Positions 16,231-43,965 of a DNA stretch of 64,000 bases are shown here, in pieces. The notes beneath the pieces were generated by a model that saw only the letters and a list, made by a program, of their open reading frames with translations, was not told where the DNA came from and ran no database searches. The stretch is from Akkermansiaceae bacterium. GTDB lineage: Bacteria > Verrucomicrobiota > Verrucomicrobiia > Verrucomicrobiales > Akkermansiaceae. The DNA is taken from NCBI GenBank assembly GCA_903919975.1, contig CAIXKE010000039.1:1-64000 (forward strand). Reading direction: 5' to 3'. Made by a program: the position numbers and the translations under genes. How positions within the stretch are numbered: position 1 is the first letter of the stretch; each line of letters starts with the position of its first letter.

Positions 16231-16306
16231 GGCCCGATAGCTCAGTTGGTAGAGCAGCGGATTGAAAATCCGCGTGTCGCTGGTTCGAATCCGGCTCGGG
16301 CCACCA
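16231..16306 (+). tRNA. tRNA-Phe (GAA), CCA encoded
   Basis: A complete cloverleaf: acceptor GGCCCGA (16231-16237) pairs with TCGGGCC (16296-16302), the anticodon stem is GCGGA/TCCGC with the loop TTGAAAA giving anticodon GAA, the T-arm carries GGTTCGAATCC, the discriminator A is at 16303 and CCA at 16304-16306. The 3' part of this gene is the integration site of the island that follows. Confidence 0.97.
16260..16305 (+). repeat. attL: tRNA-Phe 3' attachment repeat (left end of island)
   Basis: These 46 bases, from the anticodon loop through the discriminator and first CC, recur without mismatch at 43920-43965. The intact tRNA gene is kept on this side. Together the two copies bound about 27.7 kb carrying an integrase, recombinases and defence genes. 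Confidence 0.93.
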
Positions 16307-19714: not shown

Positions 19715-20497
19715 TTATATATGGGAAATCGTTCCGTTCTGGATGAGCGTTTCAAAATGCCCAAGAATATCCGCCACCGTTCTGGGGTCCTTGATGACCA
19801 CCCCCATCTCCATATTACGATTGAAGGCATCATCGGTGAGATTGGCACTCCCGATGATCGCTGTATTGTCGATGACGGCACATTTCACGTGAAGCTTGCC
19901 GGGTTTGCCGGCTTGATTTCGATCACGATTTTCAAGTGGCCAGTGGAGGAGTCTAACTTTTTCGAGGCAGACATCCTTGAATGCTTTGGCCGCGTCGAAG
20001 CTGAGTTGCCCCGCAGATGCTTGCTCGCTTTCCAACAGAAGCGTCACTTCAACTCCGCGATCGATGGCATTACTGAGGTGCTCGCACAATAGTGGTACTC
20101 GGTGTGCGGAGAAGGTCACGAGGAAAATGCGTTGCTTGGCTTTGGCCAGCAGGTCGTAAAGAACCTGATCAATCCGTCGGATGGGAAACGTCCCGTTGGC
20201 GGGGCCGCTCCAGACGATGTCGAGGATCTGCGGAGAGGATGAGACCCAGGCGTCGATCACCTCAAAGGCCGTGGCAATCTCTGCCCATGATGAAAAGATA
20301 TGATGCTTGAGCGCCTGTCTCAGAGCCCAGCTTTGATCCGGATTTAGAAATGATCCGGCGATATTGGACGCGGCGGTTCCTGTGGGCTCGCCTGATGCTA
20401 TTCTACAACTCTCCGCGAGGGAGAGCCAGACATGTCGAGGAATCCGTTCCCGAATCACTCGCAGTTTGTCGATGAACTCTGGCGGTAAAGGGTTCAT
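19715..20497 (-). CDS. drmC: DISARM protein DrmC (phospholipase D-like)
   Basis: A 260-residue PLD-superfamily protein. One HKD-type motif is plain: LHVKCAVIDNTAIIGSANLT with His203 and Lys205. An upstream helix-strand unit reads RVPLLCEHLSNAIDRGVEVT. Its start codon overlaps the drmB stop as ATGA (20494-20497), so translation is probably coupled. In DISARM, DrmC accompanies DrmA and DrmB in both classes; in published work it was reported as not essential for protection. A nuclease role is assumed from the fold. It is the last gene of the minus-strand defence cluster. Confidence 0.88.
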   Translation of the reverse strand: MNPLPPEFIDKLRVIRERIPRHVWLSLAESCRIASGEPTGTAASNIAGSFLNPDQSWALRQALKHHIFSSWAEIATAFEVIDAWVSSSPQILDIVWSGPANGTFPIRRIDQVLYDLLAKAKQRIFLVTFSAHRVPLLCEHLSNAIDRGVEVTLLLESEQASAGQLSFDAAKAFKDVCLEKVRLLHWPLENRDRNQAGKPGKLHVKCAVIDNTAIIGSANLTDDAFNRNMEMGVVIKDPRTVADILGHFETLIQNGTISHI

Positions 20498-22317: not shown

Positions 22318-25300
22318 GAGGGGTCGCTTTGGCTGTTGGAGGTGAATTGGCGGAGACCGCGTGGATTCGGATCAAGGATCAGGTTCACCGTTCCTTCGAC
22401 GTCCCGGAGACTGTTCAAGCACGTGAACTCCTCCCATTCCGCGGCCCCGGTTTCTTTGAGCAGTCCGATCACGCCGTCAGGACCGTCTCTGTAACCCAAC
22501 GCATAGTCATGCTGGTTGTGAACCAAGCTGAGCCACTTGTCCCGCCGTTCATCGAGCATTTTGCGGACGAGGACACCGACTGATGGATCTCCGATCGCCT
22601 TCTCCGCCCGGTCGATGATCCGTTGCATGATCAAGGGCATGTCAGGGTCCGTGTCGGTGAGTTTTCCGGCGTCTTCGTTGGCGTTGAGACTCTGGTCTTT
22701 CAAGCGCATCATGGCGACGAGAATGCCGGCCAACCCACGCTTGAGCGCAGGCGCGGAAAACGGTGTGACAGAAAGCGCCTCGACGTGTTTGTAAAAGGTA
22801 TCGTGGTAATGCTCGAAGGTCTCGTGATGGGATAAATCCCGCGGGCGTGCCCAGTTGAAAAGCGTGATGACGAGTCCCGGGCCACTGCGTGAGCGGCCCA
22901 CACGGCTGCTTGCCTGAATGTATTCAGAGGTGGTTTTCGGCTGACCGGCCACCACCATCAACCCGAGACGCTCGATGTCGACGCCCACCGAAATCATGTT
23001 GGTTGCAAGCAGCACATCATAGGGCCGCGGCGATGGCTGGATTCCAGCTTTGCGGTCTGCCTCGCGCTTGATTTCATGCGCTTTGTTGAACGTCGTTTCC
23101 AGCCGTTCAAGGATGCCGGGAATGTCAGTTCCGGACTTGCGGGATGTAAGCTCCTCGACAGCACCCATCCAGATCCGTCGTTTGGCGAGACCACGTTGAT
23201 CCGCATCACGCACACGGCTCCGGATGTCGTCCTCGACCAAGCGGCGGGTTCCCGCAAGTTCGCGGATCGAGTTGAAGTAACCAGCTAGAGTCATCCACGG
23301 GTCAGCGAGATTGTCGTATTTCTCATAAAGCACCTGAGCTGCACCCAACAGCGCGGTGTAAACACGGATCATGGCCACGGGATAGCGACGGCCAAAGGCA
23401 CAGATGCCCAGATAGCGGCGGCCCGGATATTGTTCCCCGGCGTGGCGGCGCAGCGAGAAGAAGCTGTCGTCGATCGACGTGCCCTGCGGTGGGAAAATCT
23501 CCACCTTGCGGAGGAAGGTCTTCTTGATCTGATCGCCGGCTCTGCGGATCGTCGCGGTGGAGGACACGACCTTGGGGCGGACTCGTTTGCCATCCACCGT
23601 CCAGGTGCAGAGTTCGTCCACTGCGGTTTCGTAAAGCGCGACCATCGAGCCGAGCGGACCGCTGATGAGGTGAAGCTCGTCTTGAATAATTAGATCCGGC
23701 GGCCTGAGCGGCGCATGGTCCTGCCTTTTTACTCCAGGCTGGCCTTTGTATTTAATGTGGGTGCCGCTGTCCTCCTTCTCCACTTCTGGGGAGAGGAAGC
23801 CGTGGCGCTCACACAGGCCACTGACCTGTCCGAACAAATGCTGTACCTCGCCCTTCCATGGCATCTGGGCGAACTTGTCCACCGTGGCGATGAGCAACGA
23901 TGGCGGGCGGCGATAGATTTCCTCGTCCACCACCATCACGGGCAATCCTTCCTTCGGGGACTTTGCCTCGCTGAATTCGCAACCGCCCGTCGCATCGCTG
24001 CAATAGGTCACGCAGCGGCCGATCTCGCTGGTGCCTTCATAGACCTTGATGTGGTGCTCGCGGATTACCCGGCCACACCACGGGCAGGAAATGAGCTGAT
24101 GGGGGGTGCCGCGGACGGTAGGCTTGCCGCCGGTCGAACTTTGGCGAAGCGCCTCCGCAGCGGAAGCCAGGCTATTTGGTGTGGCCTTCGATCCCACCCA
24201 CAAGCCAAGCCGGAATGGAATGGTGCCCCACTTTTCGAGGTTCGAGCGACGGATTGTTTCGCAGGCGCAGATGAGTGCCGTGGCCCGTTGGAATTGCTGA
24301 AGGGTGAGTAGGCGTAGCGTGTAACGCATCAGCACGGCGATTCCGTGATCACCGCAGCGGCCTTCGATCTCACCTTGCAGACGCCGCAGTGCCAATGTGT
24401 AGGCCGTAAGGCCCAAGTAGGCTTCCGTTTTGCCACCGCCGGTAGCAAACCAAAGCAAGTCGGCCACCGCATCCGTTTCATGCGTGCGGTCTTCGTGATC
24501 GAGCCGGGTGAGTCCCGGCAGATTGAGAATGACGAAGGCGAGCTGGAACACACGCCAACTCCGGTTACGAGGAATGTCCAAAGGATCCACCGGGGCACCC
24601 GGCTGAAGTTCCTTCTTCCGAACGAGCCGGGAATACGTCGAGCGCACCCGCTGCTGCCACATCGCCCGATTGGCAAACCGGAAGGATTCTTCAGCGAGTG
24701 GGTCCGAGGCGATCAGATCGATCCCTTCACGCAGCCTCTCGCAGGCACGTTGGCAGTTCGCGATGGCGAGGGCCGCGGCGTCCTGGTGGTGTTGGAGGCG
24801 CTGGGTTGGATCGGCCGGCTTCAGCACCTCGCGTGTGATCCACTGTTCATAAGCCGTGTGGAGTTGGTCGAGAGAGGCGAGTAAATCCGCCTTGGGCATC
24901 TCCGCCAGTTCCTTCATGTCCAGAATCACGCCACCGATGTCTGGGTTGTCATCCACATCCGGTGGTGTCTGCTGTTCGACTTCCGCCTGCGGAATGAATT
25001 CCGTCTCCACCGCGGTGGCGCGAACGGCGTCCGGTTGCGGAAGTGTGGTGTGGACAGATACCCCGTGACCGACGACGAACTCCGGGCGAAACCGATAGAG
25101 CATCTCTAGCGTTTCCGATTCCTCGCGCGTCATCGCGTCCATTCGCGAGAAATCCCGCTGCTCATCGTGGCGTTGGAGGAACACCGGGCGCGAGGGGCTG
25201 CCCGCGGAACGGGCGCGGACCTTCGGCTGAAACACCCACGCCTCGTCTTTTTTGTGATCTTGTTTGGGCGAAACATTGCGGAGGAAAACCGTCACCAGCC

Positions 25301-25850
25301 ACCCCTGGCCGTTCTTGCGGACTTTCCCTTGCACCACGACAGATGGATCGTTCGTGGGATCCGGTTCATAGGGTCCAAATAGACCGGGCTTAAGCTCCAC
25401 AACAAGCGGTTCTCCTTCATGCGGTTCCCGCTTCCACACCAATGCTGGCTCGCCGTTGAGCTTCTTCACCTGCTTCTCGCTCTTCACCCGGCGGTAGCGA
25501 CCCCATTGGCTTTCGATGACGATGGCTTCCTCCGTGGCCTCCACCATGAAGCTCATGCCGATGGTGCTGGGAAAAAACGAGTCCTTGGCACTGGTCGAAG
25601 CGTCGGTGGTTCCTACCTCCTGATCGTCCGCGCCGTCAGTGCCAAGACGATCCATCATCTCGCCCTCGACCACCGCGGACTGCGGGGCCAGCAGGCCGAC
25701 GAGATAGCGCCCGTAGGCATGATCTTCCCGTTGGTCGAGTTCCTCTTCCGGTCCTTCGGCAGGTCCGAGCAGGTCCTTGACCACCATCGCGGTGAGTTCA
25801 TCGCGGATGGCGTAAGGGGATGGTGGATTCAGTGTTGCCGGTGTCTGCAT
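22314..25850 (-). CDS. drmA: DISARM helicase DrmA
   Basis: An 1178-residue superfamily 2 helicase. It has a long N-terminal region, then Walker A ATGGGKTEAYLGL (Lys474), a DELH box (Asp724-His727, QDELHLISGPLGSM), motif III SSTATIRRAG, and the C-terminal lobe with LLATNMISVGVDIERLGL and QASSRVGRSRSGPG (motifs V and VI). DrmA loads on DNA with DrmB and is the shared engine of class 1 and class 2 DISARM. Here it stands 42 bases behind a PIN gene and not next to drmMI, as the usual class 1 order would have it. The stop overlaps the drmB start. Confidence 0.93.
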   Translation of the reverse strand: MQTPATLNPPSPYAIRDELTAMVVKDLLGPAEGPEEELDQREDHAYGRYLVGLLAPQSAVVEGEMMDRLGTDGADDQEVGTTDASTSAKDSFFPSTIGMSFMVEATEEAIVIESQWGRYRRVKSEKQVKKLNGEPALVWKREPHEGEPLVVELKPGLFGPYEPDPTNDPSVVVQGKVRKNGQGWLVTVFLRNVSPKQDHKKDEAWVFQPKVRARSAGSPSRPVFLQRHDEQRDFSRMDAMTREESETLEMLYRFRPEFVVGHGVSVHTTLPQPDAVRATAVETEFIPQAEVEQQTPPDVDDNPDIGGVILDMKELAEMPKADLLASLDQLHTAYEQWITREVLKPADPTQRLQHHQDAAALAIANCQRACERLREGIDLIASDPLAEESFRFANRAMWQQRVRSTYSRLVRKKELQPGAPVDPLDIPRNRSWRVFQLAFVILNLPGLTRLDHEDRTHETDAVADLLWFATGGGKTEAYLGLTAYTLALRRLQGEIEGRCGDHGIAVLMRYTLRLLTLQQFQRATALICACETIRRSNLEKWGTIPFRLGLWVGSKATPNSLASAAEALRQSSTGGKPTVRGTPHQLISCPWCGRVIREHHIKVYEGTSEIGRCVTYCSDATGGCEFSEAKSPKEGLPVMVVDEEIYRRPPSLLIATVDKFAQMPWKGEVQHLFGQVSGLCERHGFLSPEVEKEDSGTHIKYKGQPGVKRQDHAPLRPPDLIIQDELHLISGPLGSMVALYETAVDELCTWTVDGKRVRPKVVSSTATIRRAGDQIKKTFLRKVEIFPPQGTSIDDSFFSLRRHAGEQYPGRRYLGICAFGRRYPVAMIRVYTALLGAAQVLYEKYDNLADPWMTLAGYFNSIRELAGTRRLVEDDIRSRVRDADQRGLAKRRIWMGAVEELTSRKSGTDIPGILERLETTFNKAHEIKREADRKAGIQPSPRPYDVLLATNMISVGVDIERLGLMVVAGQPKTTSEYIQASSRVGRSRSGPGLVITLFNWARPRDLSHHETFEHYHDTFYKHVEALSVTPFSAPALKRGLAGILVAMMRLKDQSLNANEDAGKLTDTDPDMPLIMQRIIDRAEKAIGDPSVGVLVRKMLDERRDKWLSLVHNQHDYALGYRDGPDGVIGLLKETGAAEWEEFTCLNSLRDVEGTVNLILDPNPRGLRQFTSNSQSDPS

Positions 25851-25892: not shown

Positions 25893-26393
25893 TCAGCCAC
25901 CAGACCATTTTTCGATACGCGTCCGGCAATCCGCTTGCGGCAGAAAACTACCGCTTTCCAGGATCTTCCTAAGTGCTTCCAAAGCTTCCGAATATGCCAA
26001 CGCATCTCTGGCGACGAGTTCATCCAACACCCACAAGGTTCCTTTCACCTCCATTTTTTCAGCGAGGGCTTTCTTCCGGAGTGTGCCGTCTCCTGTCATC
26101 AGAACCGCGTCCATTTTTCTGGCCAGGAGGGCCACCGATGCATCAGGGATACTCACGCCCCAAGTTCGGGCCAGTTTTTCCGCGGCACTCCACTCGTTGG
26201 CCGCTGTATCGGAAATGATCAATGCCCCTCGCGAAACCAAGCCATTGGCCGCCGCTTTCTGGTCTGCGTCCGTGAGTTCGGTCAATACGAGGGATGTCGT
26301 GTGAATCTCATAACCCTGCGCGAACCAAATCTCCAGCAAGACGCCGTGAAACAGGTCGATCAACAGGTTCGCATCATGCACTAGAATCCTCAT
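25893..26393 (-). CDS. PIN-domain ribonuclease, probable toxin
   Basis: A 166-residue PIN-domain protein. Acidic metal-site residues are seen in order: Asp8 in HDANLLIDLF, Glu in TSLVLTELTD, Asp in SIPDASVALLARKMDA and Asp in VLMTGDGTLRKKA. PIN toxins cut tRNA, rRNA or mRNA in the cytoplasm. It begins 12 bases after the stop of the XRE-ImmA gene, the spacing of a toxin-antitoxin operon. It lies inside the DISARM cluster, just before drmA, where it could act as an abortive back-up or simply stabilise the island. Which one applies cannot be read from sequence. Confidence 0.85.
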   Translation of the reverse strand: MRILVHDANLLIDLFHGVLLEIWFAQGYEIHTTSLVLTELTDADQKAAANGLVSRGALIISDTAANEWSAAEKLARTWGVSIPDASVALLARKMDAVLMTGDGTLRKKALAEKMEVKGTLWVLDELVARDALAYSEALEALRKILESGSFLPQADCRTRIEKWSGG

Positions 26394-26405: not shown

Positions 26406-27491
26406 TCAGGCGAAGGACTCCTTGAAAATCTGACGGAACTGCTCAAGCGGCAGGCCCAACAGAGCCGCTCCGCGGGAACTGCTCACGACCCCTTCCGCCA
26501 CGCATTGCAGAACCATCTGTCGCATTCGACCATGGCTTTCGGTGTCCTCGAACATTTCGTCACCCGGTTCACCGACCTCCCGTTTCCTCCAGCCGCGGAT
26601 GCCGGCCTGCATGAAGAACCGCTCGTAAACAGCCTGGCTGATCAGGTCTAGGCGGCAGGCCCGATACATGATCGCCATCATGGAGACCCCGAAGTAAGTT
26701 TTCAGTTCCAACAGTTCACCCAGGGAAATCCCGCTTCGGCGGCCGCCAAACATCGTTTTGAAATGCTCTTCGGGCATCAGGAATGCCGAGGCGAATGGCT
26801 TCACCAGTTTTTCCTGATCCGCCTCCGGAAGGCTCTCCGGAATGGGTAACACGATATGCCCCAGCTCGTGGGCCAGCGTCATCCGCTTGCGCGGCACGTT
26901 CCGGCCCAGCCAGCTTGCGACAACGATGATCGGTTCGCCGTTCGCATCGCAGGAAAATCCATCGAAGGCAGGATCGTCCGTTTCCACCTCATGCACCTTG
27001 ATCCCCTTTAACTCGATGAATTGCTGGAGGTTGGGAATGGGATCCGTTCCCAGATTCCATTTGCACCGCAACTCCAAGGCGAAGCGTTCCACGTCTTCTT
27101 CCCGGGTAATTTCCTCACCCGCAAAGGGCGGCGCATAGGGAATTCTCGCGTTCAGCAGCTCCTCCAACTCCAGATAACGTGAGAAAAAGTCGCGGGCCTT
27201 TTCCTCAATCGCCTGCCGCCTGCCGACTCCCAAGCTGGCTTTCCGCCGGAAACTGAGACCCGAAAACTCCACCTCGTAAGATCGGAAAAAGAAATCCGCA
27301 GGCTGTTTGAGCACCTCCACCAAGCGCGCCAGAACGGCACCATCCGGCATCGTCTCGCCCTTTTCGTAGCGCGAAAGCATCGTGTGCGACGGCACTCCTC
27401 CCAAGGCTTCGGAGAGTTCGCGAAACGACAACCGGGCGATCTTTCGAGCCTGGCCTAGGCGACGGGAGAAGGTTTGGAGCACATCGGACAT
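26406..27491 (-). CDS. XRE-family regulator with ImmA/IrrE metallopeptidase domain
   Basis: A 361-residue protein. Residues about 1-65 form an XRE helix-turn-helix (LSFRELSEALGGVPSHTMLS, RYEKGETMPDG). Residues about 170-260 form an ImmA/IrrE peptidase with the zinc motif HELGH (208-212). The C-terminal end (SSSRGAALLGLPLEQFR) resembles the helix-turn-helix of UPF0175-type antitoxins, which pair with PIN-like toxins. It is followed at once by the PIN gene. The likely role is repressor and antitoxin that may cleave itself or a partner upon stress. A 195-base gap upstream probably holds its own promoter. Confidence 0.88.
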   Translation of the reverse strand: MSDVLQTFSRRLGQARKIARLSFRELSEALGGVPSHTMLSRYEKGETMPDGAVLARLVEVLKQPADFFFRSYEVEFSGLSFRRKASLGVGRRQAIEEKARDFFSRYLELEELLNARIPYAPPFAGEEITREEDVERFALELRCKWNLGTDPIPNLQQFIELKGIKVHEVETDDPAFDGFSCDANGEPIIVVASWLGRNVPRKRMTLAHELGHIVLPIPESLPEADQEKLVKPFASAFLMPEEHFKTMFGGRRSGISLGELLELKTYFGVSMMAIMYRACRLDLISQAVYERFFMQAGIRGWRKREVGEPGDEMFEDTESHGRMRQMVLQCVAEGVVSSSRGAALLGLPLEQFRQIFKESFA

Positions 27492-27686: not shown

Positions 27687-28457
27687 TCATGGCCGGATTT
27701 GGCCGGGATTCTCGGGACCGGACAGCATCGTCTTGGCCACTTCTTCCATTCGCTCGCGAAACTCCCTGAAACTCGGCATTTCGATCTGCTGAACATCGAC
27801 GCGACCCTTGGCTACGAATTCGGCTAGATCCCCGGCATTTGATTGAGACCCGATGGCCTCATCGAGCAGGTCCTTGGCCGGGTTCGGGCTATCGTCGTTT
27901 CCGGAGAGGGCTTCAAACCGGTCGCATTCCTGATAAGGGTGCTCCTGCAATGCACACAGGAGCCATGCCTCGCTTTTCGGTTTAGGCACCATGGGCACGC
28001 CATTTGGAAAGCTCTCCGCTGCAAAACCACTCTGCATCGACCTGACTTTCGCATCGCGTTGCGACCTGTCGGCGCTGCGTGTGCCGTCAGCATCACGGAA
28101 AAGAACGCCTCCCGTTTGACATTGCTCGCTTTCGGCAACTTCCTTGGCGATCCGGGCCAGAGACCTGGCGTTCTCGAAAAAGTAGGCTGTCTCCTGCTTG
28201 CGATCTCCTCTGCCGAGCAAGGTGAGTGACCTCGGCTTAGCGGCTTTGGCCTGGCGCTGATACGTGAGCAATGCCGCTTTCGCCACAAACATCATCCCGC
28301 CTCCGTTGATCGGTTCGTATCCCCAGATCGGCTCCACCAGCTTGTTGATCATCATGCCCATCGGCCCCCAAGCCACCTCGTCCGTTGGTGTGGGGCATTG
28401 CTGAGATTGTGTGGCTCCGATGTCCGTTGGCCCTTCGCCGGACACCAGCAGGATCAT
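27687..28457 (-). CDS. TOPRIM-like protein (DUF4276-type), partner of the adjacent ATPase
   Basis: A 256-residue protein. The N-terminus MILLVSGEGPTDIG carries Glu8 and Asp12 in the position of the TOPRIM glutamate, and VLFRDADGT (Asp122, Asp124) matches the TOPRIM DxD motif. These are the metal ligands of OLD-, primase- and topoisomerase-type nucleases. The start overlaps the stop of the SMC-like ATPase gene by four bases (28454-28457), so the two are translationally coupled. ATPase plus TOPRIM pairs are known defence modules (PARIS AriA-AriB; OLD proteins combine both in one chain). The DUF4276 name is from resemblance only. Confidence 0.7.
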   Translation of the reverse strand: MILLVSGEGPTDIGATQSQQCPTPTDEVAWGPMGMMINKLVEPIWGYEPINGGGMMFVAKAALLTYQRQAKAAKPRSLTLLGRGDRKQETAYFFENARSLARIAKEVAESEQCQTGGVLFRDADGTRSADRSQRDAKVRSMQSGFAAESFPNGVPMVPKPKSEAWLLCALQEHPYQECDRFEALSGNDDSPNPAKDLLDEAIGSQSNAGDLAEFVAKGRVDVQQIEMPSFREFRERMEEVAKTMLSGPENPGQIRP

Positions 28458-29635
28458 GCCTCACCTCCATCTTTGTCGGCGAGTTCCGCGGAGAGCGCGG
28501 TGAGGTCGGTATCCACGAAGGCTTCACCGGGACCGAGACCGTCCATTTTCCATGTGACCCGCGTCAGATCAAAGAACCGTTTGGCCTCGGTGGCACCGCG
28601 CTTGTTCTTGTAGAGGAAAATCACGCCCTCGCGGGCTTTGTCGTCCGGCAGGAAGTTGAGGATCAGCGGGCTGTGGGTGGTGATCAATACCTGCCGTTCA
28701 CTAGATAGTTCCAACAGGAAATCCATGAGCTGGCCGACGATCTGTTGGTTCACGCCATTCTCGATCTCATCGAACAACACCACCGAGTGCTTCGCATAGG
28801 CTTGGGCGAGAATTCCAACCACACGCAGTAATCCGTCGTTCACGTGCGAGGCTCCGAATTCGGAGGAAGGGCTGTAGTCTTCCTTGAGCACTAGATTCTT
28901 CCAACCCGCCTTCAGGCTCTTGACCGTTAGTGATTCCAAATGGGGATAGAAAGCACGCAACTGCCGACTCAAACCAGAGAGATCATCGGAATTGAGGCTG
29001 CTGAGGAATGCCGACAGCTTCTCGCCACCACTCCCGATGTCATTCGCGGACTTAGCCCGCTTACGCATGAGGTGAGGCGACAGCAGTTCAAGTGATTTCA
29101 AGCCGAGCAATCCATTCTTCAGCGAGGCAAGCGCCGGATGAACATCCGCCAGCGTCAGCACCGACAGTACCGAGCCTTCAAACAAAATCGTGGCTCCGCT
29201 GATGGCAGTCTTGAGTTCAAAATTACTGTTGGCGATCTTGAGGACCTGTCCTTCAAAAATCATGAGTTTCTTTCCTATCTCAGGCAGCCGGACCGACTCG
29301 TAGGTGCATTTTTCTTGTTGGAGATTGTAGCGCGCCTCCCACTCGATCGGGCCATGATCCTTGTCCAGCCAGGTCACGCTAATCAGGATGGTTTGTTTGT
29401 TCCTTTTCCACGCAGTTTGAAGGTCGGATGGTTGCCACTCCCTCGCCGCGAGCCAGGCGTTGACCTTGCCGGATACCAGTTGGCCGATGAAATCCAATGC
29501 CTGCAACAGAGTGGACTTACCGGAACCGTTCAAACCCACCAAAACCGTCAGCGGCGCGAGGGTGGCTCCAGGTTCGGAAGGAAGATGAAAATCCTCCAAG
29601 GATTTGAAATTTTCAATGTGGAGACGGGTAATCAT
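28454..29635 (-). CDS. SMC/ABC-type AAA ATPase of a defence module
   Basis: A 393-residue ATPase. It begins with the RecF/SMC-like strand MITRLHIENFKSLEDF, has Walker A VGLNGSGKST (Lys40), a signature-like GSGGEKLSAFL, Walker B VVLFDEIENG near residue 296, and the His switch ITTHSPLILNFL. No zinc hook or long coiled coil is present. This is the AAA_21-like class found in OLD, PARIS, RloA and Gabija-like systems. Overlap with the TOPRIM-like gene supports a two-component sensor-effector. It follows the HEPN-like gene by 43 bases in the block inserted into DISARM. Confidence 0.85.
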   Translation of the reverse strand: MITRLHIENFKSLEDFHLPSEPGATLAPLTVLVGLNGSGKSTLLQALDFIGQLVSGKVNAWLAAREWQPSDLQTAWKRNKQTILISVTWLDKDHGPIEWEARYNLQQEKCTYESVRLPEIGKKLMIFEGQVLKIANSNFELKTAISGATILFEGSVLSVLTLADVHPALASLKNGLLGLKSLELLSPHLMRKRAKSANDIGSGGEKLSAFLSSLNSDDLSGLSRQLRAFYPHLESLTVKSLKAGWKNLVLKEDYSPSSEFGASHVNDGLLRVVGILAQAYAKHSVVLFDEIENGVNQQIVGQLMDFLLELSSERQVLITTHSPLILNFLPDDKAREGVIFLYKNKRGATEAKRFFDLTRVTWKMDGLGPGEAFVDTDLTALSAELADKDGGEA

Positions 29636-29678: not shown

Positions 29679-30422
29679 TCATGGCTTGAAAAAAACCGCT
29701 TTGTCGAGTTGCCGCCAGAGAAAGGAAATGAAGCTCAGGATGTCCATGGCGTCCTCCTTACTGATCGGCCAGTCCAAGGCGGTTTCATGCGCGTGGGGAT
29801 TACGGATGGCCTGCATCAGGCCGGCGGAGAGGAACTTGATACCGTCTTGGACGTTACGGTCTGTGTCCGACTGGCAAGGGGTGACTTTCAGGACGCCTTT
29901 GTCCGCGCCCCACACCTCCAGCATGAGCGGTTGACCATCCTTGCAACTTTGAGCCTTTTCCTTCACCGCATTGTTGTAGGCCTTTGCGGATTCGAAAACG
30001 GCATGAAAGTAGTGGCCTTGGAGAAACAAGGTGCGCGCGTGTTTGAAGACCTCCCGGTGAAAGCCGCGGGAACCGAATTCCGGCTCACTGCCCAATCCCC
30101 TGCCGGAGGCTAGAACGCCTTGGCTCCGGAGAATTCGATCCAAGTCCGGCTTCAGATTGTCCGGGGTGATCGACTGGCTAAAGTCGATCAGGAGTTTTTG
30201 GCGCTTCTCGGACTCCATCTCCTCACGGGCCAGCGAGAGAATCCAATCAAAGATTAATTTAGAGCATTTTGAGGTGATCGAGGAATTAGGGAAATCCTCT
30301 CGATGAAAACGAAACAAGGCCGCGGCCTGCCGGCCGATTTCGTTGACGGTGCAGTCACGCTTTAACAATTCACCCACTGAGGTGGCGATGACGCGATAGT
30401 TGGGCTGTTGGCTAGTAGTCAT
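29679..30422 (-). CDS. TIGR02391/Ymh-type protein with HEPN-like RX4H motif
   Basis: A 247-residue protein starting at ATG 30422. The C-terminal half matches the TIGR02391 pattern: FHREVFKHARTLFLQGHYFH, then AVFESAKAYNNAV, DGQPLMLEVW, and LMQAIRNPHAHE. The last segment contains Arg207 and His212 in an RX4H arrangement, as in HEPN ribonucleases. The N-terminal half is helical and unassigned. It begins 13 bases after the stop of the reverse transcriptase gene. The two very probably share a transcript, and an RT with a HEPN-type effector would suit an abortive defence. RNase activity is inferred from the motif. Confidence 0.75.
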   Translation of the reverse strand: MTTSQQPNYRVIATSVGELLKRDCTVNEIGRQAAALFRFHREDFPNSSITSKCSKLIFDWILSLAREEMESEKRQKLLIDFSQSITPDNLKPDLDRILRSQGVLASGRGLGSEPEFGSRGFHREVFKHARTLFLQGHYFHAVFESAKAYNNAVKEKAQSCKDGQPLMLEVWGADKGVLKVTPCQSDTDRNVQDGIKFLSAGLMQAIRNPHAHETALDWPISKEDAMDILSFISFLWRQLDKAVFFKP

Positions 30423-30435: not shown

Positions 30436-32007
30436 CTAGTAACCCTCACCGCCACCTCCACCATCGCCCGGAATGTGGCGAAGTAGAATTTGTGGAGTGG
30501 TATTGGTATTAAAAAAGGAGACGTTCTGGTTTCGGAGAAAATCAAATTGTGAATGTGCTCCAAGGGCGTCCACGCCAGAGGGAGGAACTAGCCAGCCTTG
30601 TTTATTGCCCTCATAGCAAAGGAGCCAATGTCGACCGAACAACTCCGATGGCTCGGCAAACGTGTGCAGACGGGTGAACGATGCTGGATTGCCAAGGTTA
30701 TTGTTTGCCATGCTGAAGGCCATCAATGCCACAGGGGAATCTTCGCAGGCGTCAACAGCTGCCTCAACCGCACACGACATGGGTATGTCGAGGTGTCTCA
30801 TCATCCACAGCGCCCAAAGGGCTTCGCTGGCTTGGCCAAGCGGCAGGCGCTCAAGAATGGTGTGTTCAAGGCAATCTTTCCAAAGTTTGATGTCCACCGT
30901 TCGGTGCTCAATCGTTCTGTAGTAAAAAATCTGATCACAAACCTGCGGCAGGCAAGCTGGTTCGCCGCGGACGCATTGGCTGAGAAGGTATTGAAAAATC
31001 TGCCAGTTGTCCTCATCCACATCCACGGCATTGAGACGGGGAATGGCGTATTTGAAAACGCCCTCGTTAGGAGCGGCCCTTGCTAACTCGAAGGCATTGT
31101 CGAAATAGGCGGTGAGATCGGTTCGTTGCCCTCTGGTGCCGGCATCCCTGAAAACGAAGGTGCGGAGTCGGGATGTCCACAGTGGTTCGATCGGATGAGG
31201 AAGCTCGATGATTTCTGTTTTTGTTGGATTCAAGGCCAGCTCATACTTGCTCAAGATCGATTGCAATGTGCTGATCACTTGCTCCGCTTCCGAGCGCTGG
31301 TTGACCACAAACTCGTAGTCATCGATGAATCGAATACCTCTCAAGCCGGGGATCGCGGCGATAAGCTCATGATCGACTGCTGCCAAAATACACTCTGCCA
31401 ACAAGAGGGAGGTATCCGGTCCGATTGGGATCCCGACCGTTTGCTGATCGTTGATATTCCGCACACAGGTGTCTAGCCTGTCGGACCAAATGGTATTGAG
31501 AGTGTTTGTGGCTTTCGCCTGCTTGACGACATCTTTCCCTTCGATCGCCCATGGAACGGAATGGGTGTAGATCGATGGGTAAAAACGATTGATGTCTGCG
31601 TGGACTAGAAAGCGGCCGGCTGCTCTCAGCTCGGCACGACGCATCGTTCTCGCTGTGAAATCGTGAGATGCCGAAATGGCTCGCTCAGTTCCTGTATCCA
31701 CAGGCTGGGTAAGAGAAAACGGAGATCTTTGGGCACTCAGTTGAAGTGCGGTCCAATTCTGAACCACGAATGAACACAGCCTTGCATAATGAACAGGATT
31801 GGGAATGCCAAGATGCCTCCGGAGACCACCGCTACGCACCATGTTGTGAACGCACATTTCAGCGTTCCTCGGAGTTCCACCAGAAATTGGGGTCACCAAT
31901 CCATCGTTCGGACCTGTCGCAGCAGAGGCAAATGCCGTGGTGGAAAATGCCGGTGGCAATTCTCTGGGGAAATACCCGCGGGCCAGTAGGTGTTGAAGAG
32001 TCGGCAT
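30436..32007 (-). CDS. Reverse transcriptase of the defence-associated (UG/Abi-like) kind
   Basis: A 523-residue protein. Motif A is HADINRFYPSIY with Asp138. An RT2-like segment TVGIPIGPDTSLLLAE follows. Motif C is RFIDDYEF with Asp229 and Asp230, so FxDD rather than the YADD usual in retrons and group II introns. After the palm and thumb come about 200 helical residues with no maturase or endonuclease domain, as in UG/Abi-type defence RTs; the tail ends in a Gly-rich run. No msr-msd-like RNA or intron domain V is seen beside it. ATG 32007 lies 10 bases behind the drmMI stop; longer frames upstream merely shadow drmMI. The subgroup cannot be named from sight. Confidence 0.87.
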   Translation of the reverse strand: MPTLQHLLARGYFPRELPPAFSTTAFASAATGPNDGLVTPISGGTPRNAEMCVHNMVRSGGLRRHLGIPNPVHYARLCSFVVQNWTALQLSAQRSPFSLTQPVDTGTERAISASHDFTARTMRRAELRAAGRFLVHADINRFYPSIYTHSVPWAIEGKDVVKQAKATNTLNTIWSDRLDTCVRNINDQQTVGIPIGPDTSLLLAECILAAVDHELIAAIPGLRGIRFIDDYEFVVNQRSEAEQVISTLQSILSKYELALNPTKTEIIELPHPIEPLWTSRLRTFVFRDAGTRGQRTDLTAYFDNAFELARAAPNEGVFKYAIPRLNAVDVDEDNWQIFQYLLSQCVRGEPACLPQVCDQIFYYRTIEHRTVDIKLWKDCLEHTILERLPLGQASEALWALWMMRHLDIPMSCAVEAAVDACEDSPVALMAFSMANNNLGNPASFTRLHTFAEPSELFGRHWLLCYEGNKQGWLVPPSGVDALGAHSQFDFLRNQNVSFFNTNTTPQILLRHIPGDGGGGGEGY

Positions 32008-32017: not shown

Positions 32018-35000
32018 TTAGCCGAACAAGTCGGGTTGTGCGGGTGGGAACAAGTCGGCTGGTGGTTCGTAGCCTTTGGCTTTTTTCGTGGCGCGTTTGG
32101 TGCCGGTCTTCTTGGCTTTGGCCTTGCTCTTCTTCTCGTGCAATCCGGCGGCGAGTTCTTCGGCGTAGCGCTGGTGGTTGAGGGCGAGCAGGCGGTCGAG
32201 GACTTCCCTGCGGGCGGACTCGCTGAGGGTGTAGCGGATTCCTGGCTTGGTGACGTGGAAGCCGTGACCCAAGTCCAAATCACTCCAGCCGTAGGCCGCA
32301 GCTACGGCTTGGTCCATCTCGATATGAAGGGCTCGCAGGCGTGCAACATCCTCTGACTTTTCGCCGCTGTCGTGGAAGCGATTATAGGTGGTGGTCAAAC
32401 CTTCGATTCTCGCCGCAATCAAGTCCTTCCTAAAATCGTGATATGTCAAACCAGCGCTCGCTAAGGGCTCGAGTTTTTCTGGATGCGGGAATGTCTCGAA
32501 ACAGTCCGTTACGTTGTAACGTGGGCGGTCTTCAAGTTTGGAACCATGCTTTAAAGCCCAAGCTGCGTGTAGGGACGATTGAAGCAGTGCGAAATAGTCA
32601 AAGCCATCGTAGGCAAACACATTCAGAGCATTCGAGTAGATATAAGTGGAAGGAACGAATGCGAACGCATGATGTTTGCTGACAGCGGATGCAACCAGCA
32701 CTCGCTTTGTTCTCTCAATCGCTCCGTAGAGGTCGACCGTTGGCCCAGTAAACTTCCACCACAGGTCACGTCGCTGACGAGCCATGCCATTTGTTGGGAC
32801 GATTTTGTCGCGTTCAGGCTTAACCCGCTGTCGAAGTAGTTCCAGACAAAGAGGGAACTCCTCACAGGCTTCGAGCGACCAGTCTCGAAAATAGATGACC
32901 CATCGTCCCGGACTTAATGTGGGTGAAAAATTTAGTTCTTCTCCCGTCATGTAGGGAAACAGAACGCGCCTGTATTTGTCGTCGGATTCCCTTAGCCTTT
33001 GAACTTCATCGGGCTCAAGAAAAAATCCATCACCCAGCGGGACAGAACCCTTGAAGCATTTCCCACGATTGGTGAATAGCGCTGAAGGTGGAGCGCTTGA
33101 CTTGATGGCTTCCAAACTTGTGGAAATATGTTCGACCTCGAATCCATCGAGATTAAACGTGCCATTCCAAGCTCCGCAAAACATGTGGATAGGCGATATG
33201 CGAACGCTGGCTGTGCCTGGCCATAACTGATTTGCTACCGCTCGGTATAGCGTCATGCCGCGATTCACCAGATGATCCAATGCTGTTTCGCGTGTGTCGG
33301 CTTCAGAGATCGTGTTTGTAAGGACAAAACCAACAGATCCATTCTGTTTGGTGAGCGCAACCGCATGGATGAGGAAATAGGCACACAAGTCGGCGTTTTT
33401 GCGGGCGTGTGGCCAATTCCTTTTCAGAAAATGGCTGAAGGGGATTGATATTCGTATTGAAATTCGCAGTGCCCATAAGAACGGCGGGTTTCCGACAAAA
33501 GCATTGAAGCCCCCTTGCTGGAAAACTTCGGGGAACTCGATTGGCCAGTGGAATGTCCTCTGTCCGTGGAGTTGCTGGCGGGCGTAATTAGACAGCAGAC
33601 TGATCGACGGAGCTGGGAAAATCATCGCAGCATCTGCATCCTTTTTCAGCAATAGCTGCAATTTCTCGGCTTCGTCCGCTCGCTGTTCCTCGTATGCCTC
33701 ACCGTCGAGTCCACGCAGTTCGAGCGCGAGCAGGCAATCTGAGATCGCCTTAACTTTTGCGATGGAGATCTCCGCTTCGGCGTGTAAACGGTTCTTGGCT
33801 TCTATCTGGGTATGATCATTGGAAGGCAATTCTTCAAGAGTGCGGCGTTTGGTCGCCGCTTCCTCGACGTAGCGGAATAGGTTGGCTGTGCCGAATGTGA
33901 TCTGCCGATCTCCAGTGCGTAGGCTGAAGTTTTCGATTTGCTTTAGCGAAGACACCCCGACCAGTGAATCGCCGCACTTGAGCGCATGGTCAAGGAAGGT
34001 GAAGGGGCGGTCCTTTTGCAGGGTGATGAGCCAGAGTGAAAGCTTGGCCATTTCCACCGCCATGGGGTTGATGTCCACGCCGTAGAGGCAACGGTCGGCC
34101 ACATAGCGGCGGGCGAGGGCAACACGCTCGGCGGGGTCGTTCGGCAGAAGGCGTTCGCCTGCGGAACCGACGGAGAAGTCGCCATCCGGGGTGATGAGGA
34201 TGGAGCCGACGTGATCTTTTTCCGCGAGTTCCCAAGCTTCGCAGAGGCGGTCGGCGAGGTAGCGGCAGGTTTGGACGAGGAAGGCCCCGGAGCCCATGGC
34301 GAGATCGCAGATCTTGAGGGCGAGGATTTCCTTGGGCGACTTGAGTTTCCATTCCGCCACGGGCAGGCCTTCGGCGGGGCCGATGTAAACCAGGGGATCG
34401 AGGGTGTGCTTGACGACGGGATCGGTGAGCGACTTGGGTGTATAGTGGGTGCCGCTGCTGCGGCGATCGGTGCCCGCGGTGACGAAGACGGCACCGGGAC
34501 GGATGACGGCGAGGCGGCTGAAGTCGTCGGTGCGCAGCAGCCCGGCGAAGGGGCGGATGCGGTGGGCGAGGCGCGGGTCCTGGCCGCAGGCGAGGAGGAG
34601 GGAGTGATCGTGGATCGAGGATGGTAGATCGAGGATGAAAGAGGCGGCAGACGCTTCCGCTTTGGCTTTGCCGCGGGCGGTGGGTTTGCGGTAGCCGAGG
34701 GCGGATTCGAGGGCGTTGGTGCTGCGGCCGGTTTCTTCCTTGAGGAAGTCGATGAGGGCGGCGGGAGCGGTGGGGGTGTCGTGGTAGGAGACCTTGCGGG
34801 TGGGGAACTCGACGATGGAGGTGCCGTCGTCTGCCACCATGCGTTCGTTGGTGAGCGGGGCGGGTTCGGCGGCGTTGGGGTCGATGCCAGCGAGTTCCTC
34901 CAGCTTGGATAGCGGGATTTCCGGTTCATTTTTACCATCGAGGCCAAGGGTGACTTCGGTGGCGCGGCGGGCGGTGTGATCGAGAAGGCCTTCGTAAACG

Positions 35001-36301
35001 TGGCCGATTTGTTCGATGTCGAGGGCGCGGAAGGAGACGCGCCGTGCTTCCGCGGGGCCGCCGCCGGGGACTTTCACGCGGAGGAGTTGGAGGGCTTCGA
35101 GCAGGTGGAGGACCACGCGGTTGTTCACCGCCAGCGGGTGGGCCGGGGTTTCGCGCCAGCGGCTGTCGGCATCGCGGCCTTCGAGGAAGGGGAAGCGGTC
35201 GGGATCGAAGAGCGAGCCGCCATAGGCAGGGAGTCGCATCGCCTCGTGCTGCACGCCGCCGTGGACGGCGCGGAAGGTGGCGAGCAGGCGCGACCAGGCA
35301 TCGTGGCGGCGTTCGAGGACTTCCTCGCCGTGCTGGTCGGCACGTTCGCGCAGGAGTTCCCGCAGGGTGGAGACGGCGTAGTGCTGGTCGAACAGCGGAT
35401 CGCCGAGCAGAAGCAGGCCGCGTTCCTCGGCGGAGAAGAGGAAGACGAGCCGCATCATCAAGGTGAGCGCGGCATCATAGACTTCCTTTTCCGGGACGCT
35501 GGCGAGCAGGGAGCGGTTGGATTCGGCGTCGATCTGATCGAAGGCCTGGACAAGCATTTCCACCGCGCGACGGACCTGTCGGCCGAGTTGATCGGTGACT
35601 TCCTGCTGGTCCTTGGCGCTCTCCGCGTAGAGGGCGGCGAGCGTTTCCCCGGCTGCGACGCCGAAGAAGCGGCGCAGGCAGAGCAGGCTGTGGAAGGCGC
35701 GCAGGGTGATGGGTTCCTGCATCCAGATGTCGGCATACCACGAGGCGAAGCCGCTGGTCTCGCCGCGGGGGGCGTAAACGACCATCCAGTGCTCGCCATT
35801 GGTGACGAGCCCGAGCGGGACGCCTGAGGCGTGGAGCAACTCGGTAATGCGGGTGGCCGGGGAGGCTTTCCAGATCTTACCGGCGACGGGTTTCTCCAAA
35901 TCCTGGGCGGGCGGATAGGTGACGACGAGAAGCTGCGGGGTGGTGTCCCCGTCTCCACCCGGCGGACGGCGCAGGACGAGGTCCGGGCGGAGGGTTTCGC
36001 CGAAGTGCGGCTGGCTGGCTTCGAGGCCGGCGGGGATGGACTGGCCCTCGGCGATGAAGTCGGCAGGCCATTCGAGGAGGTTTTCCAGAACGTGGCGGAT
36101 CCACGCGGTGTGGACGTGGAGCAGAGGTCGGCCGCGTTCGAGCCAGTCTTCGTAGTTCTCCCGTAAGGCCGCGGCGCGGGTGGCGTCCCGGAGGTCGAGC
36201 CCCTGCGGGAACACGCGCAGGAGCACCGGCATGGAAAGGAACGGGCCGGAGGATTCGACGAGCGAGAGCCATTCGGCGTGGTGGCGGGCGGGGGTGATCA
36301 T
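32018..36301 (-). CDS. drmMI: DISARM class 1 adenine methyltransferase DrmMI
   Basis: A 1427-residue N6-adenine DNA methyltransferase. The SAM site reads ICDLAMGSGAFLVQ (from about Asp666) and the catalytic loop FVGNPPFLW (Asn938-Phe941). An upstream segment GTHYTPKSLTDPVVKHT is typical of Eco57I-like methylases, and the long N-terminal region matches the DISARM class 1 size. The tail is Lys-rich (KSKAKAKKTGTKRATKKA). It marks host DNA so the DISARM machine spares it. Its start overlaps the drmD stop by ATGA (36298-36301). The reverse transcriptase starts just behind its stop, where drmA would be expected. Confidence 0.93.
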   Translation of the reverse strand: MITPARHHAEWLSLVESSGPFLSMPVLLRVFPQGLDLRDATRAAALRENYEDWLERGRPLLHVHTAWIRHVLENLLEWPADFIAEGQSIPAGLEASQPHFGETLRPDLVLRRPPGGDGDTTPQLLVVTYPPAQDLEKPVAGKIWKASPATRITELLHASGVPLGLVTNGEHWMVVYAPRGETSGFASWYADIWMQEPITLRAFHSLLCLRRFFGVAAGETLAALYAESAKDQQEVTDQLGRQVRRAVEMLVQAFDQIDAESNRSLLASVPEKEVYDAALTLMMRLVFLFSAEERGLLLLGDPLFDQHYAVSTLRELLRERADQHGEEVLERRHDAWSRLLATFRAVHGGVQHEAMRLPAYGGSLFDPDRFPFLEGRDADSRWRETPAHPLAVNNRVVLHLLEALQLLRVKVPGGGPAEARRVSFRALDIEQIGHVYEGLLDHTARRATEVTLGLDGKNEPEIPLSKLEELAGIDPNAAEPAPLTNERMVADDGTSIVEFPTRKVSYHDTPTAPAALIDFLKEETGRSTNALESALGYRKPTARGKAKAEASAASFILDLPSSIHDHSLLLACGQDPRLAHRIRPFAGLLRTDDFSRLAVIRPGAVFVTAGTDRRSSGTHYTPKSLTDPVVKHTLDPLVYIGPAEGLPVAEWKLKSPKEILALKICDLAMGSGAFLVQTCRYLADRLCEAWELAEKDHVGSILITPDGDFSVGSAGERLLPNDPAERVALARRYVADRCLYGVDINPMAVEMAKLSLWLITLQKDRPFTFLDHALKCGDSLVGVSSLKQIENFSLRTGDRQITFGTANLFRYVEEAATKRRTLEELPSNDHTQIEAKNRLHAEAEISIAKVKAISDCLLALELRGLDGEAYEEQRADEAEKLQLLLKKDADAAMIFPAPSISLLSNYARQQLHGQRTFHWPIEFPEVFQQGGFNAFVGNPPFLWALRISIRISIPFSHFLKRNWPHARKNADLCAYFLIHAVALTKQNGSVGFVLTNTISEADTRETALDHLVNRGMTLYRAVANQLWPGTASVRISPIHMFCGAWNGTFNLDGFEVEHISTSLEAIKSSAPPSALFTNRGKCFKGSVPLGDGFFLEPDEVQRLRESDDKYRRVLFPYMTGEELNFSPTLSPGRWVIYFRDWSLEACEEFPLCLELLRQRVKPERDKIVPTNGMARQRRDLWWKFTGPTVDLYGAIERTKRVLVASAVSKHHAFAFVPSTYIYSNALNVFAYDGFDYFALLQSSLHAAWALKHGSKLEDRPRYNVTDCFETFPHPEKLEPLASAGLTYHDFRKDLIAARIEGLTTTYNRFHDSGEKSEDVARLRALHIEMDQAVAAAYGWSDLDLGHGFHVTKPGIRYTLSESARREVLDRLLALNHQRYAEELAAGLHEKKSKAKAKKTGTKRATKKAKGYEPPADLFPPAQPDLFG

Positions 36302-39300
36302 CGCTTGCCTCCTTTTTCAAGCTGGGCAACGGCGCGATAGGGAACAAGGAAGGTCACGGCGAGCGGGAACAGGCGGGGTTGTGGGTTGGCGTAGCGGCTA
36401 CGAAGGTGGGCGGTCTCGCGTTCGAGTTCGGCGGGGATTTGTTTGACCCGGTGGCGGAGACTGTCGAGGTCGCGTTGGCGCTGGGCTTTTTCGTTTTCGG
36501 TCCAATCGAATTCGAGCTGAGGGCCGTGCTTTTTGTCGAGGGTCTCGCGGATGGAGCGTTCGAGCTCCCTCATGACGGAGGTGAGGTGAGCGATCTCACT
36601 TTCCGAACGGTCGTCGAGGAAAGTCTGGAGGTTTTTCGTGCGTTCGTTCATCCGGACGTCGAGTGCCTTGGTCAGTGGCTCCTCAATATTTTTCCACAGG
36701 CCCTTCAAGGTGTCTTCGATGAACCCGGGGGCCGCCGCATCCTCGGCCGCGGCGATGGCGCTGGCGGTTTCTCCGACGTTCATGCGCTTGAAGCGACCTT
36801 CCTGGATGACGCCGCCTGCGGTGATAATTTCCTCGTGGACGCGGCGGTTGTCGCCACCGAGGACAAGGAGGCGGCCGTGGATGATGACGGCGGGAGTTTG
36901 CAGGGCACTGTCCGGCACCATGCGGGCGGTGAAACGCTGGAGTTTTTTCGAGCGGTCCATCGACCAGACTTCCGCCCGCAGGAGGCGGAGGCACATCTGG
37001 ACGAGGCGGTGGTTCAGGTGGCAGAGAACCACATCGTCGCGGCCGGTAGCCAGCGAGTGATCGAAAACGATGGGGCGCACCTTGTGGGTGTGCGGATGGG
37101 CGAGGCCCTCGGCGCAATAGGCCCATGAGCCGCTGAGCGGTGGGAGCGCCCACGCCTCTTGAATTCCCTCGACGTCGGCGGGGATTAAAGGTGGTTGCCC
37201 GGCGAGAGACAGGCCTGTTTCGACAACACTGCGGATGCGCTCGGGTGTGAGGTGGAGTTCGCGCCGGGTATCGTGAAGCTGGCTCGCGAGTTTTTCTAGC
37301 TGCTCGCGGAGCTTGCGCTCGAATTTGAGGAGGGCTTTGGCAGGAGCGGCGTCGCTTTCGGCACGGGACGTGTCGAGCGTGCGACGCCGGCCCATCATGG
37401 CTTCCTCGACTTGATCGGCGATGACCGGGCCGACCTTCCCGAGATCCTCGCGGATGGCCTCGACCTTGATGGCGGCGCGGAGAAGGAATTCAAGGTCGCC
37501 TTCCAAGTCACCCGGCGCTTGGCCAGGCTTGGTGGCATCGAAGCCCTTGCCGACGAAGTGATAGATGAGGACTTCGTCGTTTTTCTGCCCATGGCGATCG
37601 ACCCGTCCATTGCGCTGTTCCATGCGGTTCGGATTCCAGGGAATCTCGTAGTGGATGAGGCGATGGCAGTGGTTCTGGAGGTTGACGCCTTCGGACGCGG
37701 CGTCGGTGGCGAGAAGGATGCGGATCGGCGACTCGAAAGGGTCCGCTTGGAAGGCTGCTTTGATTTTCTCGCGTTCGTCCAAGGGCAGGCCGCCGTAGAT
37801 GGTGAGCAGGCGGTCGTTAGCAGCAAGACCTTCCGCGGCGAGGATGCCGTGGAGCCATTTCTGGGTGGCCCGGTATTCTGTGAAAATGATGACGCGCTCG
37901 TTGGACCACTTGCCGCCGGGCTTGAGGGTTTTGTGGAGCCAGTCGATCAGTTCCTTGGCCTTGGTGTCGGCTTGGCTCGCTGCCGCCGCGGCCCAGTGGC
38001 GGAGATCCTTGAGGATGCCGTCTTCCTCGCTGGTGAGCGGGGCGCTGTGGCGCGTGGCGGTTTCCACCTTTTCCGCGGAGTCCTCTTCGTATTCGTCGTC
38101 ATCTTGATACTCGTCATCCGCGCTGAGGCGCTGCATCCACGATGAGCCGCTAGACGGGGTGCCTGCGCCGACGGACTTCGCGTGCTTTTCGAGGGTAGAG
38201 GCGAAAGCAGCCGGACAGGAAAACAGGCGTTTCTTGAGCAGCTTGAGAACGAATTCCGCGGCGAAGCGCTGGGAGGGCGTTTCCGCGGACTTGGCGCGGA
38301 GTTCCGTGTAGCGCTGGAGGTTTTTGTGAACCTGGCGCTCGGCCTCGGTGTAGGGAACATCGATGTGTTTCACCAAGCGCTCGGCGAAGCGCCGGGAACC
38401 GTCCCAACGAAGTTTCAACTCGGACTTGAGGCGGCGGACCATGACGGCCTCAAGCTGGGCCTTGTTGATGTCGGTGCCGACGGCGAAGCGCTGGTTGTCG
38501 AGAAGTTCCAACAGGGCGGAGAAACTTTCGCTATAACCGTTGTGCGGGGTGGCGGAGAGGAAGAGCTTGTGCTCAAAGAACGGAGTCAGCCCGCGGATGG
38601 CTTGGGTGCGCTGGGAGTCGATGGCATATTTTCCGCGGCCGGAGGGGGCAACGTTATGGCACTCGTCAACGATCATCAGGTCGTAAGGTCGCGGATATAC
38701 GGATTCGTCACCGGACGGCAGGGTTTCCCGGAACTGGCGCATCGGGCGCTCGCGTTTGAGGAAGTCGATGGAGGTGATCAACCGCGGGAAGTGTGCCCAC
38801 GGGTTGACGTGAATGCCGCGCTTGCGGCGAAGTTCACCAAGGAGGTCGCGGTCCACGATGCGGAATTCGAGACCGAACTTATCCCGCATTTCCTCTTTCC
38901 ACTGCACCTGGATGGAGGAAGGGCAGATGATTAGGATCGTGCGTGCACGGTGGCGTAGAATCAGTTCCTGTGCCACGAGACCGGCTTCGATGGTTTTCCC
39001 GAGGCCTACGTCGTCGGCGATCAGGAGATTGACCCGTGGCATCTGGAGGGCGCGGACGACAGGATCGAGTTGGTAATCGTCCACTTCGATCCCGGAACGG
39101 AAGGGAGCTTGGAGTGCCTTATCGTCGGCTTGGGAGACGGAACCCCAGGTGACGGCATCGAGAAAAGCGTCAAAAGTGCGAGGCGTATCGAACGCCTCAA
39201 GCTGGGGTAAGCCCGATTTTTCCGGGCAGTGTGTACCTGGCTCCATCTCCCAGATCACTTGGAGTTCCTCGCCTAACCCCTCATCTTCCACGGAAGATAG

Positions 39301-39435
39301 GCTGATGAGATGCTCTTTCCGGATGCCTCCGTCTGCCGATTCCGCCGGCAGGTCCGACATTCTGACATCAGAAACGACAAAAGGTCGTTGGCGGACATAG
39401 ACCACTTGGCCAGGTTCTGGAGTGGCTGAAATCAT
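36298..39435 (-). CDS. drmD: DISARM class 1 SNF2-like helicase DrmD
   Basis: A 1045-residue SNF2-family ATPase. Walker A reads IADDVGLGKTIEAG (Lys147), the DEAH-type box is DECH (257-260, VDECHNVAP), motif III is FLSATPHNG, and the second lobe has LLATDAASEGVNLQ and MEQRNGRVDRHGQ. DrmD together with drmMI defines class 1 DISARM. It is the first gene of the minus-strand cluster. The 560 bases upstream have no drm gene and should hold the main promoter, though no clean -35/-10 pair stands out. The stop overlaps the drmMI start. Confidence 0.93.
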   Translation of the reverse strand: MISATPEPGQVVYVRQRPFVVSDVRMSDLPAESADGGIRKEHLISLSSVEDEGLGEELQVIWEMEPGTHCPEKSGLPQLEAFDTPRTFDAFLDAVTWGSVSQADDKALQAPFRSGIEVDDYQLDPVVRALQMPRVNLLIADDVGLGKTIEAGLVAQELILRHRARTILIICPSSIQVQWKEEMRDKFGLEFRIVDRDLLGELRRKRGIHVNPWAHFPRLITSIDFLKRERPMRQFRETLPSGDESVYPRPYDLMIVDECHNVAPSGRGKYAIDSQRTQAIRGLTPFFEHKLFLSATPHNGYSESFSALLELLDNQRFAVGTDINKAQLEAVMVRRLKSELKLRWDGSRRFAERLVKHIDVPYTEAERQVHKNLQRYTELRAKSAETPSQRFAAEFVLKLLKKRLFSCPAAFASTLEKHAKSVGAGTPSSGSSWMQRLSADDEYQDDDEYEEDSAEKVETATRHSAPLTSEEDGILKDLRHWAAAAASQADTKAKELIDWLHKTLKPGGKWSNERVIIFTEYRATQKWLHGILAAEGLAANDRLLTIYGGLPLDEREKIKAAFQADPFESPIRILLATDAASEGVNLQNHCHRLIHYEIPWNPNRMEQRNGRVDRHGQKNDEVLIYHFVGKGFDATKPGQAPGDLEGDLEFLLRAAIKVEAIREDLGKVGPVIADQVEEAMMGRRRTLDTSRAESDAAPAKALLKFERKLREQLEKLASQLHDTRRELHLTPERIRSVVETGLSLAGQPPLIPADVEGIQEAWALPPLSGSWAYCAEGLAHPHTHKVRPIVFDHSLATGRDDVVLCHLNHRLVQMCLRLLRAEVWSMDRSKKLQRFTARMVPDSALQTPAVIIHGRLLVLGGDNRRVHEEIITAGGVIQEGRFKRMNVGETASAIAAAEDAAAPGFIEDTLKGLWKNIEEPLTKALDVRMNERTKNLQTFLDDRSESEIAHLTSVMRELERSIRETLDKKHGPQLEFDWTENEKAQRQRDLDSLRHRVKQIPAELERETAHLRSRYANPQPRLFPLAVTFLVPYRAVAQLEKGGKR

Positions 39436-43919: not shown

Positions 43920-43965
43920 GATTGAAAATCCGCGTGTCGCTGGTTCGAATCCGGCTCGGGCCACC
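43920..43965 (+). repeat. attR: duplicate of tRNA-Phe 3' end (right end of island)
   Basis: Identical over 46 bases to 16260-16305. Only the 3' half of the tRNA is present and no acceptor 5' strand precedes it, so this copy is not a working tRNA gene. It marks the right junction of the integrated element; the integrase gene stands just inside. Confidence 0.93.

Follow-up and report, generated by a model that had tools for sequence, protein, structure and literature searches.

A DRT6-type reverse transcriptase between drmMI and drmA of an island-borne class 1 DISARM operon in an Akkermansiaceae bacterium

The window, that is, the whole 64,000-nucleotide stretch of Akkermansiaceae DNA that was analyzed, contains a complete class 1 DISARM system. 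All five genes of the known system, drmD, drmMI, drmA, drmB and drmC, occur on a single strand in the known order, but here six added genes (6.2 kb) separate drmMI from drmA. The gene run, on the minus strand throughout, is drmD, drmMI, a reverse transcriptase (RT) gene, ymh, PDC-M25A, PDC-M25B, HTH-M78, a PIN-like gene, drmA, drmB and drmC, with gaps of -4, 10, 13, 43, -4, 195, 12, 42, -4 and -4 nt in that order. The drmD gene (36298..39435) encodes an SNF2-like helicase of 1045 aa (NCBIfam NF038317, 1340 bits) and overlaps by 4 nt with drmMI (32018..36301), which encodes the class 1 DISARM adenine methyltransferase of 1427 aa (PADLOC DrmMI, 1674 bits). At the other end of the run lie drmA (22314..25850; helicase, 1178 aa; NCBIfam DISARM_DrmAS, 1355 bits), drmB (20494..22317; 607 aa; NCBIfam DrmB_fam, 668 bits) and drmC (19715..20497; PLD nuclease, 260 aa; 231 bits in the NCBIfam/PADLOC comparison and 183 bits with NCBIfam DrmC_I). 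DrmD, DrmA, DrmB and DrmC, the Drm proteins with an NCBIfam model, passed its cut-off.

Among the added genes, the RT gene (30436..32007) directly follows drmMI. At 13 nt 3' of it begins a Hypoth_ymh or PD-Lambda-3_B-like gene (29679..30422; 247 aa; PF09509, 5e-34; PADLOC PD-Lambda-3_B, 7.6e-26), followed by the AAA ATPase gene PDC-M25A (28454..29635; 393 aa; PADLOC, 3.7e-127) and by PDC-M25B (27687..28457; 256 aa; PADLOC, 7.3e-84), which overlap by 4 nt. The last two are an RmrA-like gene with HTH and M78 (ImmA/IrrE) domains (26406..27491; 361 aa; PF06114, 3.6e-13; PADLOC RmrA, 5.3e-47) and, adjoining it, a PIN-like gene (25893..26393; 166 aa) whose match to PF01850 (9e-4) is under the Pfam cut-off.

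The cluster is bracketed by a 46-bp exact direct repeat. The left att copy (16260..16305, plus strand) is the 3' half of a tRNA-Phe gene, and the right att copy (43920..43965, plus strand) lies next to the tyrosine integrase gene of the island (42608..43795, minus strand; PF00589, 3.9e-12). The DISARM-RT cluster is the cargo of an integrative element of about 27.7 kb at tRNA-Phe.

The RT open reading frame extends on the minus strand from an ATG at 32007 to a TAG at 30438-30436, and the plus strand of 30436-32007 is full of stops and noncoding for protein. The original prediction of a 523-residue RT with FIDD at motif C, placed 10 nt behind drmMI, was correct: drmMI ends at 32018, the product matches Pfam RVT_1 (3.6e-9) and has DINRFYPSIYTH as motif A and RFIDD as motif C. 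The first residues, MPTL, are identical in a close relative (L057/L002). Across 46 aligned sequences, in which relatives range from 26 to 80% identity, the catalytic aspartates D138, D229 and D230 never vary. The GC3 of the RT gene is 0.555, versus 0.70 to 0.74 in drmD, drmMI and drmA; drmB (0.62) and drmC (0.59) are lower too. No sigma-70-like promoter was detected immediately 5' of the RT gene, and matches in the region did not exceed the level of shuffled sequences. Judging from the gene spacing, the RT gene is probably transcribed with DISARM, as had been proposed.

The RT is assigned to DRT6 (UG12), with a soft border between DRT6 and DRT4. The best PADLOC profile was Drt6 (PDLC03748; 530.6 bits, E value of 1.1e-159, residues 2-506). 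A Drt4 profile came second with an almost equally high score (496 bits), which is why the border is considered soft, and the RT missed the NCBIfam Drt4 equivalog cut-off (266.3 versus 450 bits). A PDB sequence search placed 9wy8 first (2e-60) and UG15/DRT4 next (2e-34). The AlphaFold2 model (pLDDT 92.5, pTM 0.91) has a C-terminal part consisting of helices throughout, like DRT4, DRT6 and AbiK. Its best Foldseek/VIA match was 9wy8, the "hexameric DRT6" (Z of 43.8, rmsd of 1.8 Å over 491 aligned residues), ahead of DRT4 (Z of 35), UG15 (Z of 32) and AbiK (Z of 27); group II or DGR RTs reached a Z of about 15 across about half of the residues. In a quick tree of 83 rows, with long branches present, the RT fell within a 71-row DRT6 clade together with the 9wy8 sequence (SH-aLRT 95), and UG15 fell outside. 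The RT thus resembles DRT6 in sequence and fold over its full length, in its catalytic aspartates and in being a single gene without a noncoding RNA, but it differs in lying within a DISARM operon, and its identity to the solved protein is only 28%. DRT4 (UG15; 9vdo and 9l9s) also matches over the whole length (Z of 32 to 35), and its chemistry is probably alike, but its scores are lower and it lies outside the clade of the RT. AbiK shares the RT and the helical C-terminal part but only 15 to 18% identity.

An origin as a group II intron, retron or DGR enzyme was considered and rejected on the profile scores and the missing RNA element, and the fold ranking agrees. The group_II_RT_mat score was 44.5 (cut-off 300) and the retron_St85 score 30.6 (cut-off 235). 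Across the whole window, Rfam detected a tRNA-Phe only and neither retron nor intron RNA, and with only 10 and 13 nt of noncoding DNA flanking the RT gene there is no space for a noncoding RNA. These results bear out the expectation of a UG/Abi-type defense RT without such an RNA beside it, and the tree, which had been suggested as a check, places the RT in the DRT6 clade.

Several related class 1 loci have drmA right behind drmMI, indicating that the RT of the window sits in an inserted stretch, where class 1 DISARM would continue with drmA, as originally stated. The distance between the two genes is 13 nt in L165, which is the closest of the intact DISARM loci detected in other phyla (drmD 1345, drmMI 1417 and drmA 1538 bits), -4 nt (an overlap) in L168 and L174, 152 nt in L175 and 86 nt in L176. 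Other loci carry diverse genes at this place. Four Verrucomicrobiota genomes (L136, L137, L140 and L141) have a HATPase_c_3 gene of about 627 aa behind drmMI; the L136 protein has a TIR-type SpbK match at its C terminus, and the L136 gap also holds AbiGi. A further Verrucomicrobiota locus (L138, 9199-16031) contains pAgo-II, SIR2-like, AbiJ_NTD5 and AlbA_2 genes. Elsewhere the gap holds a weakly LmuB-like gene (L144), an HTH-M78 gene with a 171-aa gene (L169), XisHI (L170), a PIN gene (L171) or HATPase and O-methyltransferase genes (L173), and in some relatives it is filled by toxin-antitoxin genes. Because its content differs among loci, being near-empty or made up of unrelated genes, the drmMI-drmA gap is an accessory slot. 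A relative of the RT of the window, sought at this position in other DISARM loci as had been proposed, was absent from every other slot examined.

Some further features of these slots were observed. The HTH-M78 (RmrA-like) and PIN-like pair of the window (25893-27491) lies just 5' of drmA, and a comparable pair occupies the same place in L169. Kinship of the two pairs was considered and rejected, with HTH proteins weakly similar (32% over 119 aa, 2e-5) and partners not. The genome of the window contains a second DISARM-like operon (L148; G000:C14:161001-181000) with drmD, drmMI, drmA and drmB; in its slot lie a gene of 689 aa that matches no Pfam family and an open reading frame of 145 aa. In Thiocapsa marina (L163, 8445-17397), a 558-aa open reading frame is inserted into drmMI and splits it, and the gene ahead of drmA is an anti-restriction gene of the ArdC-like type.

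The closest relative of the RT is found in Verrucomicrobiaceae UBA7681 (L056). It is 80% identical, is open across 526 codons and has UvrD-like and OLD-like genes as neighbors. Directly 5' of it lies a degenerate drmMI 3' end, in which 91 of 126 aligned bases are identical in six blocks and the frame is broken. This stub ends in LFG-stop 11 nt 5' of the RT start, compared with 10 nt in the window. It scored 76, against a mean of 23.6 for about 6000 random windows; among the random-window matches listed, those scoring at least 73 were the drmMI of the window itself or C-terminal drmMI positions in other loci. In the 80 upstream regions of the RT relatives, the next best score was 35, indistinct from chance, and in two other close relatives, L057 and L179, drmMI is absent from the position immediately 5' of the RT. 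A drmA gene was not matched in the L056 genome at an E value of 1e-20. The shared junction indicates that the linkage of drmMI and the RT gene is older than the genome of the window and common to two diverged lineages. Since the RT pair is saturated at fourfold sites (32.5% identity) and the stub is still 72% identical, drmMI probably remained functional and under constraint for a long period following the divergence of the lineages, its decay in L056 being late, as read from a short alignment. The stub suggests long coresidence of the RT with drmMI, and a functional link is possible. The RT has stayed intact in L056 after the loss of DISARM, which argues that it works alone.

Scanning about 85,000 genomes yielded 168 RT relatives, and the best 80 of the 168 were kept. 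With the DISARM proteins of the window as the query, DISARM was found within 10 kb of only 1 of these 80. In this case, Thiocapsa marina (L087), the RT gene is not part of the operon but sits upstream of drmD, from which a helicase gene on the opposite strand separates it. The other 79 had no DISARM within the flanks at hand, both full 10-kb flanks being present for only 40 of the 80. A DrmA search in the genomes of 30 of the 80 gave two matches, those of L087 and L057, the latter at a distant locus. No viral relatives were found in a scan of viral contigs using the RT alone; phage records gave partial RT matches only, at less than 31% identity, and plasmid relatives were at most about 30% identical. 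The single occurrence near DISARM among 80 relatives indicates that there is no dedicated RT-DISARM system. The suggestion that the RT may work with DISARM as one system was therefore not supported, also in view of the unrelated genes in the slots of other loci and of the nearest relatives, which keep an intact RT without adjacent DISARM.

The RT is best explained as an autonomous single-gene DRT6 passenger, inserted with other defense modules in the drmMI-drmA slot of an island-borne class 1 DISARM, and we give this reading a probability of roughly 0.75. Reviews describe DRT4 as a single-gene polymerase that is primed by Tyr, works without a template and produces random single-stranded DNA, and DRT6 as its structural homologue with a phage activator in common, whose products are incompletely characterized there; in this mode the RT is sufficient and a noncoding RNA is not used (PMC13213688, PMC13314766). 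The gaps of 10 and 13 nt and the tRNA-only Rfam result fit this mode. By analogy with DRT4 and DRT6, the RT, presumably translated from the drmD-drmMI transcript given the spacing, would form a hexamer and would make protein-primed (Tyr-primed), untemplated single-stranded DNA, whose buildup on infection would block the cell as an abortive defense. Two independent defenses would then be stacked, with methylation-sensing restriction by DISARM first and abortive DNA synthesis as the second layer.

DRT6-type RT genes repeatedly follow restriction genes, in other phyla as well. In L069, L119 and L122 the RT gene is located between hsdS and hsdM inside a type I hsd operon, with a 4-nt overlap with hsdS in L119 and L122 and a 0-nt gap in L069. 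Others lie behind hsdR-like and hsdM genes (L061 and L062), a type ISP gene (L095), Mrr (L090 and L116) or GmrSD (L133). By an approximate count based on open reading frames, 28 of the 77 assessable RT genes have a same-strand open reading frame at most 150 nt upstream. These counts stand without a background rate for defense islands, and hence no enrichment is claimed. AbiK, and also AbiA, have already been recorded with restriction-modification genes (PMC8934634).

This pattern, together with the 10-nt spacing behind drmMI, the same junction in L056 and the probably long constraint on drmMI after the split, could also reflect coupling of the RT to DISARM as a backup effector, silenced by or sensing the state of DrmMI or DISARM. 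PrrC, a guard of a type I restriction-modification enzyme, is a precedent (PMC2610378). Such coupling is unlikely, since the RT of L056 outlived DISARM, the nearest relatives stand alone, the other DISARM slots are without the RT and many unrelated modules occupy the same slot. The more general form of this idea, in which a DRT6 behind a methylase or specificity gene of DISARM or type I restriction-modification would stay silent as long as the host enzyme is intact, producing toxic single-stranded DNA once a phage disables it, is likewise doubtful. If true, DRT6 would be a DNA-synthesizing counterpart of PrrC, coupled to methylation-dependent systems.

The original prediction had also named a single chance event as a way in which it could fail. 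A single recent insertion, linked to DISARM only by the common island, would agree with the rarity of DISARM near the best 80 of the 168 relatives, with the integrase and 46-bp att repeats of the mobile island and with the variable slot content. The tight codirectional spacing and the L056 stub, with a junction older than the genome of the window and shared by two diverged lineages, speak against it, and a chance neighborhood is considered improbable. Dependence of the RT on the downstream ymh and PDC-M25 genes as a four-gene embedded system, to which the 13-nt spacing of ymh and the codirectional M25A and M25B point, is less probable still, because no ymh-like sequence was found behind the RT in L056 or L057, PDC-M25 is a separate PADLOC candidate pair and the known DRT4 and DRT6 systems are single-gene.

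The interpretation as an autonomous DRT6 passenger relates the locus to known embedded defense modules (preprint by Payne et al., cited through PMC12255303 and PMC11411939). As in "guilt-by-embedding" cases such as DarTG2 or TgvAB in type I restriction-modification, a whole defense module is nested in a multigene restriction operon, but here DISARM acts as the host operon for a DRT passenger. A DRT6 within DISARM was not found in the literature searched, in which the primary DRT4, UG/Abi-survey and embedding papers were represented by papers citing them. The finding identifies the interval between drmMI and drmA in class 1 DISARM as an accessory slot for whole defense modules. L056 provides a natural experiment in which a DRT6 has outlasted the operon that hosted it, and the dependence of an embedded abortive system on the surrounding restriction system becomes directly testable.
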